From IMG/VR virus record IMGVR_UViG_3300017989_000436, positions 1 through 24,045 of that record: a stretch of DNA of 24,045 nt; one strand, 5' to 3'. Each line of letters starts with the position of its first letter. Within the stretch, counting starts at the first letter, position 1. The translations under genes and the position numbers were made by a program. Source of the DNA: a virus. Below are positions 1,971 through 24,045 of this stretch, one piece after another. The notes below the pieces were generated by a model that saw nothing but the letters and a program-made list of their open reading frames with translations, had not been told where the DNA came from and made no database searches.

Positions 1971-3398
1971 TCAGTAGGTGAAACGTTTCCTCGCCCTGTC
2001 ATCGAGCTTCTTGTTCCTGGCGATGCGATCCCTTATGGACTCGATGCGTTCCCCTTCGTCATTTCCGTCGTATGCCTTGGGGGCTGCATTGCTAACACCT
2101 GTCAGGTCAGCCTGCCTCCTTTCGGGAGCCTGTGTCATGGCCATCATCATGGCAGAGAACATGTCACCGTGGGAGTGGTTCTGCCTCACTGCCTGATATA
2201 CGATGTTGCCGGAGTTGGTGATCACCCTGTCTATCGAAAGGAAGTCATCCTCTACCTGCTTGTCGGCCTCCATCCTTATCCATCCGTTCTGGAAATAGCG
2301 TTTAACCTTCACACAGGCCTCCTCCTTCGATTTCATCGTAGGATCGAAGGCTACCACCCTTGACTCCCCAAGACGGCCCTTGAGGATAGTCGTTGGATGA
2401 CGTCCGATACCGGCGTTGTCGGAGACGATTTTGTCACATTTATATCTCTTGGCATACCCTACGACAGTGTCCAGCTGAGTAGCGATGGGGGTCCCTCTTG
2501 GGAAGTAGTAGGTCTCGACGATCTCAGCCTCCTGCATGGATGCCCTGATGACACAGATGGCTGCATAGTCACCGTGTAGGCTCTCTGCGGAGTCATAACC
2601 GAGGTAGTACATGCCGTGGTCGATGGAACCCTTCTCACGAAGCTCTATGGCATCCCTGACCTCCTTGAAGGACAGCAGTGAGCATGCATCGTCAGCCGGT
2701 ATGCAACAGAACTCCTGAGCGAAGGTGAACTCGTCATAGGTCTCCTTCAGCCAGTCTATGAAGTCCTCACGCTTCTCGTATGGTTCGTTGCCGTTCTTGA
2801 TCATGGTGGGGTTGACCACTTGTTCCACAAAACCCTGATCCACTGCATCGTATATAGTTGTTGAGTGGAGAGACCACTCCGACTCCGGTTTCCTTGCTTC
2901 CATGACGAGACGATTGAATAGGCTGTTACGACTCCTGTGGGTGGAAAGGATGGAGAGGTTGCCCCCTGCCGTTATGATGGGCTGAGCCACCGTCATCAGC
3001 AGTTCAGGGTCGTTGTGGAGGGCGAGCTCGTCTATGTAGAGGGAGCCACCCTTACCGGCGGCGGCGTTGGGGTTGGAGCTTACCGCTATGAGACGAGAGG
3101 AGCCTCCTGCGTGTGGAATCTCGATGGACAGCCTCTTGATGTACTTCTTGTCTATCGTAGCCCCTGACGGCATGATGGCGTTCCACATGTGTATCCATCT
3201 GGCAACGTTGGCAACGAACTCCGTGGAGAGAGTCTCATCGCGGGATATGACGATGATGTCATGCCCCTTCTTGGCCATGAGCTCCTTGAACACGCCGTAT
3301 GACGTGGAGTAGGTACCACCGATACGACGGCTCTTCTCGAGGATCTTAAGGCGTGACTGGTCATCAATCCACTTCTGCTGGTATTCAAGCCATTTCAT
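1971..3398 (-). CDS. terL: Terminase large subunit, Mu gp28-like
   Basis: 475 residues. The N-terminal packaging ATPase shows a deviant Walker A at about 22-30 (KSRRIGGTY), a hydrophobic Walker B ending in DE at 119-124 (SLYIDE), and a coupling motif LSTH at 151-154. The C-terminal nuclease domain shows the expected acidic residues: D269 in 'YYLGYDSAE', D327 in 'IVSDNAGIG', and D412 in 'HSHGDMFSAM'. The enzyme pumps DNA into the procapsid and cuts it. The early RRxGGT motif and overall size fit the Mu gp28 branch. Its start overlaps the sigma-like gene stop by 4 bases (ATGA), so translation is probably coupled. Confidence 0.92.
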   Translation of the reverse strand: MKWLEYQQKWIDDQSRLKILEKSRRIGGTYSTSYGVFKELMAKKGHDIIVISRDETLSTEFVANVARWIHMWNAIMPSGATIDKKYIKRLSIEIPHAGGSSRLIAVSSNPNAAAGKGGSLYIDELALHNDPELLMTVAQPIITAGGNLSILSTHRSRNSLFNRLVMEARKPESEWSLHSTTIYDAVDQGFVEQVVNPTMIKNGNEPYEKREDFIDWLKETYDEFTFAQEFCCIPADDACSLLSFKEVRDAIELREKGSIDHGMYYLGYDSAESLHGDYAAICVIRASMQEAEIVETYYFPRGTPIATQLDTVVGYAKRYKCDKIVSDNAGIGRHPTTILKGRLGESRVVAFDPTMKSKEEACVKVKRYFQNGWIRMEADKQVEDDFLSIDRVITNSGNIVYQAVRQNHSHGDMFSAMMMAMTQAPERRQADLTGVSNAAPKAYDGNDEGERIESIRDRIARNKKLDDRARKRFTY

Positions 3399-3913
3399 TG
3401 TTCTAGGATCTCCCTTAGCTTGGCGAGGCCCCTAACGATCATGCTGTTTAGGGTCTGGTACTTGATCCCGGTTATGTTGGAGAGCTCCTGCTTGGTGTAG
3501 CCCTCCATATGATGTAGCCTGATCAGGGATGCTATGTCGGGGTCGATCATGGACAGAGCCTGATCCAGATCTCCCTTGAGACCCAGATTGGGTGTCGTGG
3601 TACCCGATTTGGGGTCCTGATAGGCATACTCCTCACTGACGTAGGTAATCTCGATGTCCCTCAGTACCGGGACGTGGATGACGTCCACCTTGTATCTCAC
3701 GTACCTGTTGATGGCCTCGTTTATTCTCAGGTAGGCATAGGTGGAGAACTTGGTGTCGAAAGTGGGGTCGTAGGTCTCACAGGCCCTTTTCAATCCCATG
3801 AAGCCCTCCTGTATGAGATCGTTGACCAGGTCCGGGTTCGAAGTGTACTGCCAGGCGATGGAGTACACCATCTTCTCATGGTTCTCTATGACTGCATTGT
3901 TGAATTCTATCAT
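3395..3913 (-). CDS. Sigma70-family RNA polymerase sigma factor
   Basis: 172 residues with clear sigma70 region 2 (about 10-80). It contains 'DLIQEGFMGLKRA' and 'FDTKFSTYAYLRINEAI', the core-binding and -10 recognition helices. A 'VPVLRDIE' segment like the start of region 3 follows. Region 4 lies at about 121-170 ('YTKQELSNITGIKYQTLNSMI', HTH). Region 1.1 is absent and region 3 is short, so it resembles a small alternative sigma. It is placed between TerS and TerL with ATGA overlaps at both ends, so it is co-translated with the packaging genes. It probably directs host polymerase to phage promoters late in infection; that role is inferred. Confidence 0.85.
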   Translation of the reverse strand: MIEFNNAVIENHEKMVYSIAWQYTSNPDLVNDLIQEGFMGLKRACETYDPTFDTKFSTYAYLRINEAINRYVRYKVDVIHVPVLRDIEITYVSEEYAYQDPKSGTTTPNLGLKGDLDQALSMIDPDIASLIRLHHMEGYTKQELSNITGIKYQTLNSMIVRGLAKLREILEQ

Positions 3914-4939: not shown

Positions 4940-5082
4940 TACGCCATCTCTCTCCATTTGTTACCGCATCCACGGCATTTAAGGTGATAGGTGTCAACGA
5001 ACATGCCCCCATGGACAAGTTCGATCTTGACGTCCTTGCTTTCGCATTCGGGACATACGAAGTCTAGGTTGTCATCCATCAT
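4939..5082 (-). CDS. Zinc-ribbon microprotein (47 aa)
   Basis: A short gene, start overlapping the stop of the HTH gene (TGATG) and stop overlapping the nuclease start (TAATG). The 47-residue product has two CxxC knuckles: C10-P-E-C13 and C36-R-G-C39-G, with 22 residues between them and an aromatic 'NKW' after the second. This is a classical zinc ribbon. Such ribbons bind nucleic acid or RNA polymerase, or act as adaptors. The tight coupling on both sides strongly supports it as a real gene. Function is unknown. Confidence 0.8.
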   Translation of the reverse strand: MMDDNLDFVCPECESKDVKIELVHGGMFVDTYHLKCRGCGNKWREMA

Positions 5083-5327
5083 CAGTCGGCCCCCAGCTGT
5101 TTCTTTACGAAAGTCCTGTTTGCTCTCCTGGATGCCTCACGGTCATACAGGAACGTCATCAGCCTAACGAGCTGTTCACGCCTCTTGGGGCGTGGGCAGC
5201 TTCTTCCGACACGGTAAGAGTTGACACTGTCAACGCCAACGTCGAACAGCTCTGCCATGTCTGTGGCATCCCACTTCATGAAGCGTTGGAACTCGAGCAT
5301 GTTGTCCTTGAATTCTTCTTTTGTCAT
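5082..5327 (-). CDS. Cro/repressor-like HTH regulator
   Basis: The product is 81 residues from the ATG at 5327. An earlier ATG at 5336 sits too close to the AGGG. Residues about 18-45 form a Cro/XRE-type HTH ('DATDMAELFDVGVDSVNSYR'), followed by a basic patch (GRSCPRPKRREQ). The protein is about the size of Cro. Its start is preceded at once by a perfect 14-bp inverted-repeat site (5339-5352) that recurs at 6001-6014, so autoregulation and control of the divergent early region are likely. It begins the packaging and structural gene series, immediately after an intrinsic terminator. Confidence 0.65.
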   Translation of the reverse strand: MTKEEFKDNMLEFQRFMKWDATDMAELFDVGVDSVNSYRVGRSCPRPKRREQLVRLMTFLYDREASRRANRTFVKKQLGAD

Positions 5328-5338
5328 ACTTGACATCC

Positions 5339-5352
5339 CTAACTCGTGTTAG
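5339..5352. promoter_or_regulatory. Operator-like site O1 (CTAAC-N4-GTTAG)
   Basis: The 14-mer CTAACTCGTGTTAG has 5-bp arms with perfect dyad symmetry. It lies 11 bases upstream of the HTH gene start and overlaps its likely transcript start and leader. An exact reverse-complement copy lies at 6001-6014. Two identical 14-mers in non-coding DNA of one phage, one next to an HTH gene, suggest an operator for that protein. Confidence 0.6.
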
Positions 5353-5364
5353 ATATTTTGCCTT

Positions 5365-5391
5365 AAAAAAGGGCCGGCAACTCACCGGCCC
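5365..5391 (-). terminator. Rho-independent terminator after 5411-5899 gene
   Basis: Read on the minus strand, GGGCCGG (5391-5385), a 7-base loop and CCGGCCC (5377-5371) are followed by six T residues (5370-5365). The 7-bp stem is entirely G-C. It starts 20 bases past the stop of the 5411-5899 gene and lies just before the operator and HTH gene. It therefore separates the first minus gene from the packaging and structural series, unless read through. Confidence 0.85.
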
Positions 5392-5410: not shown

Positions 5411-5899
5411 CTATGCGAAGAAGACCTCTTGCGGACACAGGCGATTCAGCCTGGCTTCCTCTTCCTCTCTGACTTCGAGGATGCCCTCTGCAACGCTACG
5501 GGCTATCTCAGTGTCCTCGTCCTCGATGAGGGCGAGAGTGGTGGACCCCTTCAGGCTCCTGATGACGTCCACGTATTCCTCTTCGAGACCATCGAAGGAT
5601 TCGGCAACCCTGTTGACGAAGCCTGTGTTGTTGAGGATCATGTCGAGGTATTCCGCAGCGTACACTCCAAACTCCCTTACGGACATCTTGGAGTACCGGT
5701 CAATCCAATCCGAAGCGATGTTGCTCATGTAGGGGATTGCATAGGATGCCTTGTAGGCGAGATCTCTCTCGCTGTCGGGCATCTCTTCGTTCCTTCGAAC
5801 GTTGACGATAAGCTCAGTCATCTTGGTTCTGAGTTCCTCTCCCCACACTCTCTGGCTTTCGCTTCTGGCTGTCATCTGTCTCAGTTTTCTCATCTTCAT
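5411..5899 (-). CDS. Hypothetical protein, first minus-strand gene
   Basis: 162 residues, helical and charged, with a basic N-terminus and an acidic C-terminal half ('EYVDVIRSL', 'EDEDTEIARSVAEGILEVREEEE'). No membrane segment, signal peptide or recognised motif is visible. The ATG at 5893 (M3) is better spaced from AGAGG than the ATG at 5899. It is the only gene between the strong sigma70-like promoter at 5938-5966 and the terminator at 5365-5391, so it forms a monocistronic early-type unit. Position suggests an early host-takeover or regulatory protein; nothing in the sequence shows the activity. Confidence 0.7.
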   Translation of the reverse strand: MKMRKLRQMTARSESQRVWGEELRTKMTELIVNVRRNEEMPDSERDLAYKASYAIPYMSNIASDWIDRYSKMSVREFGVYAAEYLDMILNNTGFVNRVAESFDGLEEEYVDVIRSLKGSTTLALIEDEDTEIARSVAEGILEVREEEEARLNRLCPQEVFFA

Positions 5900-6000: not shown

Positions 6001-6014
6001 CTAACACGAGTTAG
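6001..6014. promoter_or_regulatory. Operator-like site O2 (CTAAC-N4-GTTAG)
   Basis: CTAACACGAGTTAG is the exact reverse complement of the site at 5339-5352. It lies in the intergenic region between the leftward and rightward promoters, next to the first cluster of ACGCGTA repeats. It is a probable binding site for the HTH protein encoded at 5082-5327. Confidence 0.55.
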
Positions 6015-6017
6015 CCC

Positions 6018-6246
6018 TTTTACGCGTACGCGTGTACATACGTGTATATCCTCGTTTTCTATGTTGTTAAATTCTTTATTCTAGGTCCCTTAAGGGACTT
6101 TGAATAATATATATTAATATTATCTCTTACGCGTACGTGTAAAAGAATATCAACGAAGTTGATTGTATTACAACACATCATTAGATTCGCGTATACGTAC
6201 GTACGTGTAAAGGTCGTCAGTATTACGATTTGACTATTTCGTAATA
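6018..6246. repeat. Iteron/palindrome cluster, candidate replication origin
   Basis: No credible gene lies between about 5944 and 6401. This part holds three related tracts of alternating ACGCGTA/ACGTGTA (6018-6048, 6127-6142, 6188-6211); the middle one is TTACGCGTACGTGTAA, nearly palindromic. Also present are a perfect 14-bp palindrome GTCCCTTAAGGGAC (6085-6098), an AT-only-like block at about 6102-6121, an inverted repeat ATCAAC-GAA-GTTGAT (6149-6163), and an 8-bp inverted repeat TATTACGA/TCGTAATA with a 10-base loop (6221-6246). Repeats plus an AT-rich block between divergent promoters resemble a phage origin or a multi-site regulator region. The role is inferred. Confidence 0.5.
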
Positions 6247-6262
6247 ATCGTGATAAAAGGGC

Positions 6263-6291
6263 TTGCAACAGGAAGGGATTCGGATTAGTAT
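6263..6291 (+). promoter_or_regulatory. Sigma70-like promoter, rightward
   Basis: TTGCAA (6263-6268) and TAGTAT (6286-6291) are separated by 17 bases. The -35 hexamer and spacing are the same as in the leftward promoter at 5938-5966. Transcription would start near 6298 and run through a structured leader into the 6402 operon. Confidence 0.55.
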
Positions 6292-6327
6292 TAGGGTAAT
6301 AGATAAAAACGGAGTGAAGAACCGATA

Positions 6328-6405
6328 ATGATATCACGAGCTCCCGGAGACTTTCGAGTCTGTTTCTTCACCCGGGAGCTCATTTTTTTTGGAGAGTCAA
6401 AATGA
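6328..6405 (+). CDS. Possible 25-codon leader peptide
   Basis: ATG at 6328 opens a 25-codon frame (M-I-S-R-A-P-G-D-F-R-V-C...) running through both arms of the terminator hairpin and the U-tract. It ends at TGA 6403-6405, overlapping the ATG of the next gene (ATGA). The ribosome binding site is poor (GGAG is 13 bases upstream), so translation is uncertain. If translated, a ribosome would unfold the terminator and couple to the next gene. Confidence 0.3.
   Translation: MISRAPGDFRVCFFTRELIFFGESK
6338..6390 (+). terminator. Terminator/attenuator hairpin in leader of 6402 operon
   Basis: GAGCTCCCGG (6338-6347) pairs perfectly with CCGGGAGCTC (6372-6381) and is followed by A and eight T residues (6383-6390). 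The 24-base loop contains a small AGACT-TTCG-AGTCT hairpin (6348-6361). It lies about 40 bases downstream of the likely transcript start and only 12 bases before the first gene, so it cannot be an end-of-operon terminator; it should attenuate transcription. Bases 6314-6321 (GTGAAGAA) are complementary to loop bases 6364-6371 (TTCTTCAC), offering a second pairing. Confidence 0.8.
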
Positions 6406-6980
6406 AGATTGACGAGAAAGAGCAGAGAAGAAGACAAGCCGTCGTAAGGAAGATGTGGTCCGAAGGGATCAGGGACTTCGATGAGATGGTAGAGAAGAGC
6501 GGTATCGACAAGAACGGTATCCAGGTAACCTTTAACACCCTGAAGAATTCCCATGTGTTCGATGATGTCACCATAGACGTCGACGAGACATGCATGAAGA
6601 CCCTGAATATCATCAGGAAGATTGCCACCGCAATTGCTGCCGGATGCAACAATCAGAAGTCCATAGGGGTACATACTGGAATGACCGGTAAGCAGGTTTA
6701 TGCCGTCGTTGAATTCCTGAAGAAGACCGGTGACGTCAGCGAAGAATACAGGTTGACAAGGCTCGACGACCGTGACATGAGGCTCGTATGCATTGAAGAC
6801 CTTCTCAAGTACAGCGGTCGTCATACCGTCCGTCAGATAGAGGACAGGCTCGAGATTCCCAAGTCAACGGTACACCGCATCCTCACTGAAAACCCCGACA
6901 AGTTCGTCCAGAAGAAAGAGGTCATCAATGACAGAGAGGTTGGCTTCTGGCATCACCTTGAAGAAGTGGAGATCATGTGA
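6402..6980 (+). CDS. Multi-HTH DNA-binding protein (regulator or initiator)
   Basis: 192 residues. Three HTH-like segments are visible: about 24-51 (ending 'QVTFNTLKNSHVF'), about 83-110 ('SIGVHTGMTGKQVYAVVEFL'), and about 140-163 ('HTVRQIEDRLEIPKSTVHRI', the best match, IclR/winged-helix type). A GGAGAG five bases before the ATG supports the start. It is the first gene of the rightward operon, directly beside the repeat-rich region. It could be a transcription regulator or the replication initiator binding those repeats; the sequence does not decide. No ATPase or nuclease motif is seen. Confidence 0.65.
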   Translation: MKIDEKEQRRRQAVVRKMWSEGIRDFDEMVEKSGIDKNGIQVTFNTLKNSHVFDDVTIDVDETCMKTLNIIRKIATAIAAGCNNQKSIGVHTGMTGKQVYAVVEFLKKTGDVSEEYRLTRLDDRDMRLVCIEDLLKYSGRHTVRQIEDRLEIPKSTVHRILTENPDKFVQKKEVINDREVGFWHHLEEVEIM

Positions 6981-7213
6981 TGTTAGACATAAATCACGAA
7001 TGGTCAGAGGGCGAAAACGGCTCCCTAACACTGACGTCCTCGGACACCGTCAACAGGGTCACCACGGTCTTTCCGAAGTCCGAGGTGATCATGTACACCA
7101 AGGACAACACCATGGAGGAGTTCAAGAAGTACATCGAGAACTTCATCACGCTCAAGATGGTCATCAACTGCTCTGCGGTACCGCCGGAGCTCCTGGAGGG
7201 CAACAATGAATGA
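6980..7213 (+). CDS. Hypothetical protein (77 aa)
   Basis: Start is ATG 6980 (TGATG overlap with the previous stop, GGAG eight bases upstream); a GTG one codon earlier is possible. The 77-residue product looks like an alternating beta/alpha small domain: 'VNRVTTVFPKSEVIMYT' then the helix 'MEEFKKYIENFITLKMVI'. No membrane segment or known motif. Its stop overlaps the next gene by 8 bases. Function unknown; coupling suggests it works with its operon neighbours. Confidence 0.65.
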   Translation: MLDINHEWSEGENGSLTLTSSDTVNRVTTVFPKSEVIMYTKDNTMEEFKKYIENFITLKMVINCSAVPPELLEGNNE

Positions 7214-7805
7214 AGCATACGAACTCAACGTGGTCAACGAGTGGATTGACAAGGCTGTCGGGAAATGGCAGAGACAGCAGGACGGCTCCATCATGGTGGA
7301 GATCCCACAGGTTGTCGTGGATGCGGTTACCCAGTGGGTGGCCGTTGTCTGGGAGAAACGAAAGGGCAAACGCCTGTGGCGTAACGACAATGAGGACTAC
7401 ACCCGTCACGTTGCCGGGACCCTCGGTGAAATCGCTGCATGTGTCATCCTCTCGAAGACCGAGTACTCGAATGAGGTCCTCCATCCCGATTGGAGCATCT
7501 TCGAAAGCAACACCGCGTACAGGGACTCCGACATAGGCAACTACAGTGTCAAGACATGCAGGATGCGTTCTGACTGGTCCTGGATAGCCGAGAAGGGCGA
7601 TTGCATAACGCGTAAGAGCTGTGGGCAACCCATCGTACTCATGAGGGCGGACGGCTTCATCAGGATGTATATGCTCGGTGTATGGCTTCCAAGGGATCTG
7701 TATCCGTATTGGCGTGAGCCCTTCGCCCGTCATCTCAAGGACGGGAAGGCTGCCCTGTATTACTCGGACATAAAGAACGTTCAAAAGTACCACCCGGAGG
7801 TTTAA
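7206..7805 (+). CDS. Possible PD-(D/E)XK nuclease-like protein
   Basis: 199 residues, start preceded by GGAGGGCAACA. The middle resembles a restriction-endonuclease fold: helix with 'HVAGTLGEIAACVIL' (E75), then 'LHPDWSIFE', 'RDSDIGNYSVKTCRM' (D109, K116) and a strand 'QPIVLMRADGFIRMYMLGVW'. This GE...D...VK order is typical of PD-(D/E)XK phosphodiesterases in phage operons. It could act in DNA processing or host DNA degradation. Alternatively it is an unrelated beta-sandwich; the catalytic assignment is by eye only. Confidence 0.45.
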   Translation: MNEAYELNVVNEWIDKAVGKWQRQQDGSIMVEIPQVVVDAVTQWVAVVWEKRKGKRLWRNDNEDYTRHVAGTLGEIAACVILSKTEYSNEVLHPDWSIFESNTAYRDSDIGNYSVKTCRMRSDWSWIAEKGDCITRKSCGQPIVLMRADGFIRMYMLGVWLPRDLYPYWREPFARHLKDGKAALYYSDIKNVQKYHPEV

Positions 7806-7806
7806 G

Positions 7807-8286
7807 ATGGACAAAATGGAACGCAACGCCATAAGGGTGGACATCATGCAGGCGATGGACAGCGAAGACTGTGTCTTCGAATACTTCGAGGCCATGCTGT
7901 CACGCTGGACACCGCAGCAGATCCTGAAGGTATCGGCAGAGGATCTAGATGAAGAAACGACGGAATTCTGTAATGAGTTCCTTCTGACAATACAGGTCGA
8001 ATTGCTGAACGAAGCCATAAATTACGTCAAAAAGAGCCATCTATATTGTAACGACGAAGCCATGAAGATGCTCGAACGCTGGGTAGTGTCGGAAAAGGTC
8101 GATATTGGCTTTGTGAGGTCTTACAATGATTACGGAGCGGCAACCGGCATGGACATTCTGGTTGACTGTGGAGTATGCAGATACATCACCAATGAGGATG
8201 AAGAACGCGTAGCCAGGCTCAACTTCAGGCCACCATGCCGTAACAATGACGACGAGAAGCCACACTGGGGTAACTTGCTGGAATGA
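7807..8286 (+). CDS. Hypothetical acidic protein (159 aa)
   Basis: Begins two bases after the previous stop and overlaps the sigma-like gene by 4 bases (ATGA). It is acidic and helical in the first 110 residues ('ERNAIRVDIMQAMDSEDCVFEYFEAML', then 'LLTIQVELLNEAINYVKKSHLY'). The C-terminal third carries several cysteines (VDCGVCRYI, PPCRNN), too few and too spread to call a zinc site confidently. No known family recognised. Confidence 0.65.
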   Translation: MDKMERNAIRVDIMQAMDSEDCVFEYFEAMLSRWTPQQILKVSAEDLDEETTEFCNEFLLTIQVELLNEAINYVKKSHLYCNDEAMKMLERWVVSEKVDIGFVRSYNDYGAATGMDILVDCGVCRYITNEDEERVARLNFRPPCRNNDDEKPHWGNLLE

Positions 8287-8825
8287 TGGACTACGACCAG
8301 ATATACAGGGAAGTACCGAACCTTGCATTGGCCACCTCTGAGTTGATAAAGCAGCTCAGGGGTGAACTTTTATCAAAGGAAGAGATCGTGTCCCTGTCAT
8401 GGGAAGTCCTCGAAGAGTCTCAGAGGAGACTTGACGAGGAGCGTGGAGCCCTGCCTACCATAATGAGGTTTGTCGTCATGAACGTCCTCGGCAGAAGGCG
8501 TGAGACGAAGTACACGGTCAGACTGCCGATATCGGCCCTCAAGAGGGGTACCGTCGTCAACGTTACCTCCTCCAACACTGAAAGCGGTAAGGACATGGAC
8601 TTCGAGGCTCCGGACAGCAGAGGCAGGATGCATGAGGAGTACAGCTGGATGTTCGAACTCATAGAGGACGTCCTGAAGGAGCGTTACGCCATAGCAATCC
8701 ATCTCTACTACATAATGGAGATGTCCATATACGATATCTCCAGGATCTACGGGGTATCACCGCAGCGTGTGGACCAGATCGTCAAGCGTGGCATCGAGAA
8801 GATCAGGGCTAAACTGAAAAAATAA
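8283..8825 (+). CDS. Sigma70-like factor with C-terminal region 4
   Basis: 180 residues. Region 4 is clear at about 128-178: 'LKERYAIAIHLYYIMEMSIY' followed by the HTH 'DISRIYGVSPQRVDQIVKRG' and 'IEKIRAKLKK', the usual '...IEKIR' ending of sigma region 4.2. The N-terminal half (about 33-75) is helical and might be a worn region 2 ('EEIVSLSWEVLEE ... PTIMRFVVMNVLG'), and 'VRLPISALKRG' resembles the start of region 3. It probably redirects host RNA polymerase or acts as an ArpU/RinA-like late activator. It closes the main rightward operon and shows little similarity to the sigma at 3395-3913. Confidence 0.65.
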   Translation: MMDYDQIYREVPNLALATSELIKQLRGELLSKEEIVSLSWEVLEESQRRLDEERGALPTIMRFVVMNVLGRRRETKYTVRLPISALKRGTVVNVTSSNTESGKDMDFEAPDSRGRMHEEYSWMFELIEDVLKERYAIAIHLYYIMEMSIYDISRIYGVSPQRVDQIVKRGIEKIRAKLKK

Positions 8826-23655: not shown

Positions 23656-24045
23656 TTAAACCTTCTTGGCAGGATCGAAGTCGACGTAAACGCCATCGGA
23701 CGTTACTTCAACGACGACACCGGCTGCGATATCGTTCGTGGGTCCTGCTGCTACTGCAACAGTACAGGCATCCTCGACGTAGCAGAGGGTACCGATGTCG
23801 GTCTTGGCCACTGCGTTCGTTGCCGAGTTGTCCATGAGATGAATCCCGGTAGAGATGAAACTGACGGTTTCACCATCGTCGGTGTTATCGACGTACTGGG
23901 TACCAACGCCAAGAACTACGGTAGAAGCTGTATCGCTGGCTGCAATAGCCTCAGGCGTGGCATCTTGCGAGACCATTTCGCCCACGTACAGGATTTCTGC
24001 ATCCTTGACTGTTCTGGCATCAACGTAGCTGAACTTTGCATCGCC
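23656..24045 (-). CDS. Capsid decoration protein, main part (Mu gp33-like)
   Basis: The body is about 130 residues, rich in V, A, T and D. Its architecture is typical of small decoration proteins in Mu-like head modules: an N-terminal stretch resembling the 'ILYVGEMV' strand, and a C-terminal run with 'IGTLCYVEDACTV', 'AAGVVVEV' and 'GVYVDF'. Such proteins bind the outside of the assembled capsid lattice and stabilise it. The gene lies between scaffold and major capsid, with 13 bases to the capsid gene, as expected. It is cut by the window edge: the 5' end lies at 1-155. The shortest intact reading uses GTG at 23985 (109 residues). Family assignment rests on pattern and position, not on a search. 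Confidence 0.65.
   Translation of the reverse strand, partial: GDAKFSYVDARTVKDAEILYVGEMVSQDATPEAIAASDTASTVVLGVGTQYVDNTDDGETVSFISTGIHLMDNSATNAVAKTDIGTLCYVEDACTVAVAAGPTNDIAAGVVVEVTSDGVYVDFDPAKKV
23923..24045. repeat. Terminal direct repeat, right copy
   Basis: Exact second copy of bases 1-123. Joining the two copies gives a circle of about 23,922 bp and restores the decoration-protein gene across the junction. Confidence 0.95.

Follow-up and report, generated by a model that had tools for sequence, protein, structure and literature searches.

The stretch of DNA analysed here (the window) is a virus record of 24,045 nt, IMGVR_UViG_3300017989_000436. Bases 1-123 and 23923-24045 are identical, and this 123-bp terminal repeat marks the window as the circular assembly of a genome of 23,922 bp; the repeat has a length that would suit an assembler k-mer better than a biological repeat. 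The genome carries Mu/B3-like portal, terminase, and gpT-like capsid genes. Its only plus-strand operon spans 6402-8825, and the remaining annotated genes are all on the minus strand. Two sigma-like proteins are encoded, one beside the terminase genes and the other closing the early operon (Table 1). The first gene of this operon, 6402, has only weak helix-turn-helix matches; its structure model, like that of gene 5411-5899, is of low confidence, and a PDB fold search gave no significant match. The nearest relative of the window, IMGVR_UViG_3300022698_000224 (G001), has a capsid 80% identical and a terminase 66% identical, and the plus-strand operon genes of the window are missing from it.

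In one Lentisphaeria-containing class, 49 of 198 genomes have capsid homologues with 30-42% identity, and the capsid matches in a phylum-wide sample fell nearly all in the same class. This distribution suggests that the class is the host group. Homologues of the gpT-like capsid are common there (e.g., loci L114-L133); few phages of this class have, to our knowledge, been described.

Table 1 Features of the leader element and its surroundings in the window
Feature	Position	Strand	Remarks
Sigma-like protein	3395-3913		Adjoins terminase genes; counterpart in G001, 36%
Putative promoter TTGCAA-N17-TAGTAT	6263-6291	+	8/12, sigma70-like; transcript start near 6298
Alternative helix, leader strand	6310-6321	+	CGG 6310-6312, bulged A 6313, GUGAAGAA 6314-6321; partner 6364-6374
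Linker, 16 nt, unpaired	6322-6337	+	G001: equal length, other sequence
25-codon ORF through the hairpin	6328-6405	+	Start codon not conserved in G001
Terminator 5' arm GAGCTCCCGG	6338-6347	+	Hairpin fold; G001 counterpart GCCCACCGG, 4 compensatory pairs
Inner hairpin AGACT-TTCG-AGTCT	6348-6361	+	Stacks on terminator stem; G001 AGCC-CUAGA-GGCU
10-nt 3' bulge GTTTCTTCAC	6362-6371	+	Alternative helix, 3' strand: 6364-6371
Terminator 3' arm CCGGGAGCTC	6372-6381	+	First 3 nt (CCG) also in the alternative helix
U8 tract	6383-6390	+	Expected RNA 3' end; preceded by A6382
Shine-Dalgarno GGAGAG of gene 6402	6391-6396	+	Sequence
Gene 6402, first in operon 6402-8825	6402-6980	+	192 aa; predicted three tandem helix-turn-helix-like units
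Sigma-like protein	8283-8825		End of early operon

Putative promoter and terminator ahead of the plus-strand operon

The sigma70-like promoter that the original prediction placed ahead of the operon exists as read but is weak, falling under our scan cut-off of 9/12. A divergent promoter on the minus strand (5966-5938, TTGCAA-N17-TATATT, 9/12) is followed by a similar leader, which lends the plus-strand promoter some support. The two divergent leaders, 5966-5899 on the minus strand and 6263-6336 on the plus strand, are alike to a degree equalled by 30 of 2000 shuffles; TTGCAA-N17, AAAAAC, AGTGAAGA, and TAATGA are common to both. The exact palindrome CTAACNCGNGTTAG occurs twice in the window, at 5339-5352, directly before an XRE-like gene (5336-5082, minus strand), and at 6001-6014, between the divergent promoters, and is likely the operator of this small XRE-like helix-turn-helix protein. 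Also between these promoters lies an AT-rich array of direct and inverted TACGCGTACGTGTA-type repeats (6016-6211), which could be operators or replication-origin iterons.

A perfect 10-bp stem with a U8 tract had been read ahead of the first gene, and our analysis confirms it: all 10 of 10 pairs form, 8 of them GC, and the stem carries an inner hairpin of 5 bp. The hairpin has a folding energy of -24.2 kcal/mol (z -5.1). It ends a leader of about 93 nt, and its U8 tract stops 11 nt upstream of gene 6402. The window genome holds two strong terminator-like sites, of which this is one, and 20 shuffled genomes gave no site with a stem of at least 10 and a GC count of at least 8. The other site (5371-5391, minus strand; GGGCCGG...CCGGCCC followed by T6) lies between genes 5411-5899 and 5082-5336. 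It was also true, as first noted, that no upstream gene on the plus strand needs terminating, the other annotated genes being on the minus strand of a circular genome. In the window, an intrinsic terminator therefore stands between a promoter and its first gene with no upstream gene to serve, as in attenuators.

A leader strand complementary to the terminator bulge

The predicted complementarity over 8 bases between the leader (6314-6321) and the terminator bulge (6364-6371) exists as well. It extends past a bulged A, through CGG 6310-6312 and CCG 6372-6374, into an 11-bp helix that overlaps the terminator at this CCG, the core 8 bp staying clear of the terminator stem. By chance, an 8-nt complementarity arises in 2.7% of cases when both parts are shuffled and in about 1% with genomic stretches, and dinucleotide-shuffled leaders attain the energy of the alternative fold in about 2%. 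Putting random genome stretches in place of the leader was uninformative as a control, since those rich in GC self-fold. Judged in the window by itself, the complementarity is thus weak and modestly significant (p about 0.01-0.03), and regulation is, from the window alone, plausible but unproven.

In folds of the growing RNA, the alternative helix reached a mean pair probability of 0.91-0.92 for 3' ends 6372-6378 in the window and of 0.80-0.94 in G001. In both phages it leads until all but 2-4 nt of the terminator stem have been made, after which the terminator rises to about 1.0. These folds are thermodynamic, computed with RNA polymerase absent, and at equilibrium they favour the terminator, so the leader helix alone may fail to stop termination. 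RNA polymerase shields roughly the last dozen nucleotides of its transcript, so that the exposed RNA would be near the switching point when the polymerase is in the U-tract. We infer that the leader helix would be positioned there to choose between read-through and release.

Compensatory changes in the nearest relative

A covariance model was made from the window element alone, with the terminator as its sole structure, and run over 79 sources. Its best match besides the window, in about 1 Mb, was in G001 (locus L088, 6293-6380), with 23.5 bits and an E value of 0.0044 in 26 kb or 0.17 in about 1 Mb. There the parts follow in the order CGG-A-GUUAAACA, 16 nt, GCCCACCGG, AGCC-CUAGA-GGCU, UGUUUAAC, CCGGUGGGC, UUUUUU. 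Although neither the leader strand nor the bulge has the window's sequence, the two still form 8 consecutive pairs, and the bulged A and CGG:CCG are kept. As the leader:bulge helix was left out of the search model, its conservation is independent evidence. The two sequences together have 23 pairs with 95.6% of cells paired; 8 pairs differ at both positions, of which 3 belong to the leader:bulge helix, 4 to the terminator stem, and 1 to the inner hairpin. No shuffle out of 500 was as good, and slid structures yielded 0-1 double changes. The extended 11-bp antiterminator taken alone has weaker column statistics (29 of 500 shuffles), because its CGG:CCG pairs are invariant. Both the 24-nt spacing from helix to helix and the 16-nt length of the linker are identical in the two phages. 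An alternative pairing that overlaps the terminator through CCG, as expected of the attenuator class, is thus conserved with 3 compensatory pairs. The original prediction had named related phages lacking the hairpin and the complementarity as evidence against it; when this comparison was run, G001 proved to have both, with compensatory changes.

In G001, a good promoter (TTGAAA-N17-TATGAT, 10/12) occupies the same position relative to the element, and the gene 3' of the element encodes a DnaD-like replication protein rather than the tandem helix-turn-helix-like protein of the window. Position 6262 of G001, just before the element, is the end of an upstream gene, and the hairpin could double as the terminator of that gene. 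Nevertheless, the genome layout, the downstream genes, and their orientation all differ between the two phages around the same element, which argues that it is tied to the promoter and the early operon, and so to early-operon control, not to the end of an upstream gene.

Specificity and searches for further members

A sequence-blind descriptor (stem of at least 8, loop of 14-35, a T-run, and, beside the 3' arm, at least 7 nt with a complement in the 45 nt upstream) picked out a single site in G001, and 150 shuffled versions of that genome had none. The 1.55 Mb of fetched DNA contained 64 distinct long-loop terminator-like hairpins, and only those of the window and G001 had a qualifying partner. 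No third member appeared in the 198 genomes of the inferred host class, in a 388-genome sample of the phylum, or in 96 other virus records, so the known members are two only. A host-class match, L135, was false, sitting within a carbamoyl-phosphate-synthase-like gene; the other host-class model matches listed were discarded by eye for want of a matching leader pairing, L146 and L147 of the phylum sample as ordinary terminators, and L115 and L092 of the locus scan as weak and lacking the pairing. Searches of viral_contigs yielded no close relatives through proteins 6402, 5411, or 7206 or the terminase alone, and no copy of the exact DNA pattern of the element. Likewise, the leader, the G001 leader, and the flanking genes had no match in phage and plasmid collections, nor had gene 6402 any in the genomes of the inferred host class. 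No Rfam covariance model matched the element at its gathering score, and with no Rfam match a known riboswitch was rejected.

Discussion

We consider it probable that the element is a cis-acting transcription-attenuation leader of an early phage operon. At the sequence level, both phages have the terminator, the alternative helix and its overlap with the stem, compensatory conservation, and a place before an early operon. Switching in vivo, the default state of the switch, and whatever would trigger it are inferred, along the following lines. Transcription would start near 6298, and the emerging leader, CGG-A-GUGAAGAA, would pair with UUCUUCAC-CCG of the terminator bulge and 3' arm. The 11-bp helix would occupy three bases of this arm and delay the terminator. 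Once the remaining 3' arm had emerged, offering a 7-nt toehold (GGAGCUC), the terminator could displace the leader helix, and release of the polymerase at U8 would leave an RNA of about 93 nt and hardly any operon mRNA. Stabilising the leader helix, be it by a phage or host protein, a ribosome, or the elongation rate, would lead to read-through, and a factor blocking the leader strand would enforce termination.

Conditional termination with an alternative pairing, as first proposed, is thus supported by the two helices kept in G001, which may either compete or join in a pseudoknot. The pseudoknot is the main structural rival, because the 8-bp part of the leader:bulge helix does not overlap the stem. 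The same pairs could coexist as the 8-bp helix with the full stem, or as the 11-bp helix with the lower 7 bp, and would then form one folded domain, binding a ligand or protein or acting on RNA polymerase, instead of exclusive folds. Both helices covary, and the length of the linker is kept while its sequence is not, as such a domain might have it. However, the leader CGG and the bulged A, which only the overlapping 11-bp helix requires, are kept in both phages; two members are too few for a conserved binding pocket to show, and no Rfam family matches. We regard this domain as unlikely, if deserving of weight.

It is less likely still that the terminator is constitutive and relieved by a phage antiterminator protein in the manner of lambda Q and tR', the leader pairing being incidental. 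A more distant Mu-like phage, L064, does have a late leader with promoter and terminator (5630-5780) resembling PR'-tR', followed by lysis and terminase genes. At L064 5630-5827, TTGACA-N17-TATTCT within an inverted repeat precedes a leader of about 80 nt, a two-tier terminator with T8, and an endolysin-like gene. Nevertheless, compensatory change has preserved the leader pairing, and a scan of ten proteins from around the element, most of them of unknown family, recognised no Q-like or N-like protein.

We give little credence to countertranscript attenuation as in plasmid pT181, in which an antisense RNA would cover the leader strand and let the terminator form. The window does offer a promoter-like site on the minus strand (6357-6328, TCGAAA-N18-TATCAT, with TG before the -10), from which an RNA starting near 6321 would cover 6314-6321, but this site is weak and none was found at the counterpart position in G001.

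Translation of the 25-codon ORF might also melt the terminator and couple to gene 6402, as the original prediction suggested in pointing to peptide-coupled control. The ORF does span the hairpin, and its stop overlaps the ATG at 6402; the same frame in G001 is open for 23 codons and likewise ends at ATGA. The ORF itself thus stands, but the peptide-coupled control drawn from it is unsupported, its ATG being absent in G001, where the only start is a TTG inside the base of the hairpin with no ribosome site. In the window, GGAG lies 13 nt ahead of the ORF ATG, too distant for a normal ribosome site, and there is no run of regulatory codons. As no translated ORF with a start and a ribosome site is conserved between the two phages, leader-peptide attenuation was rejected as very improbable, and the ORF is probably untranslated.

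Equally improbable, and also rejected, is a trans-acting small RNA of about 93 nt whose bulge pairs with the start of divergent gene 5899-5411: among 37 gene starts, this one forms the strongest duplex (-11.2 kcal/mol, equalled by 2.4% of random stretches) and AGTGAAGA is in both divergent leaders, but the G001 word GTTAAAC occurs only once there, in the leader itself (the hairpin's own complement aside), and therefore has no second target.

Beyond attenuation in these two phages, it is conceivable, at somewhat less than even chance, that the element represents a class of phage leader RNA not described before, whose conserved helix between a terminator bulge and an upstream leader strand responds to a cellular or phage signal (a ligand, a protein, or the elongation rate) and so controls early and replication genes of phages that infect Lentisphaeria-like hosts. 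For most phages of uncultured bacteria, we know of no control of early-gene timing. This RNA is compact, and compensatory change has preserved it in two phages with differing downstream genes, which points to a portable early switch that acts at termination, not initiation. If confirmed, it would be a further family of non-coding RNA known from phages and a clue to how transcription is controlled in those infecting Lentisphaeria-like hosts.

Comparison with known systems

The predicted logic is that of the known terminator/antiterminator attenuators, and the element itself is absent from Rfam. In lambda, PR'-tR' has the same order of promoter, short leader, intrinsic terminator, and operon, but the operon is a late one, controlled by the Q protein and a DNA site, and we know of no conserved leader:bulge helix there. 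The preQ1 and fluoride riboswitches are small pseudoknotted leaders coupled to a terminator expression platform; the present element differs from them in having no Rfam match or recognisable conserved pocket and in lying before viral early genes.

The putL and putR RNAs of phage HK022 are likewise short structured RNAs near the start of a phage early transcript that affect termination. They consist of two stem-loops (about 70 nt) that bind the zinc-binding domain of the RNA polymerase beta' subunit, have no terminator of their own, and act processively on distant terminators (PMC9378689). The present element instead includes its terminator, in a single two-tier hairpin with U8, and so falls outside the put type.

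The repC leader of plasmid pT181 adopts one of two folds, an intrinsic terminator or an alternative pairing determined by an antiterminator strand further upstream (PMC4878617). Its antiterminator sequesters the 5' arm of the terminator, and its control is by antisense RNA (PMC4878617). In our phages no antiterminator pairing with the 5' arm was seen, the leader strand taking the bulge and three bases of the 3' arm instead, and no convincing antisense RNA was found. Both nonetheless set a terminator against an alternative pairing at the 5' end of a replication or early operon, and the pT181 replication leader is the closest mechanistic parallel to this element.
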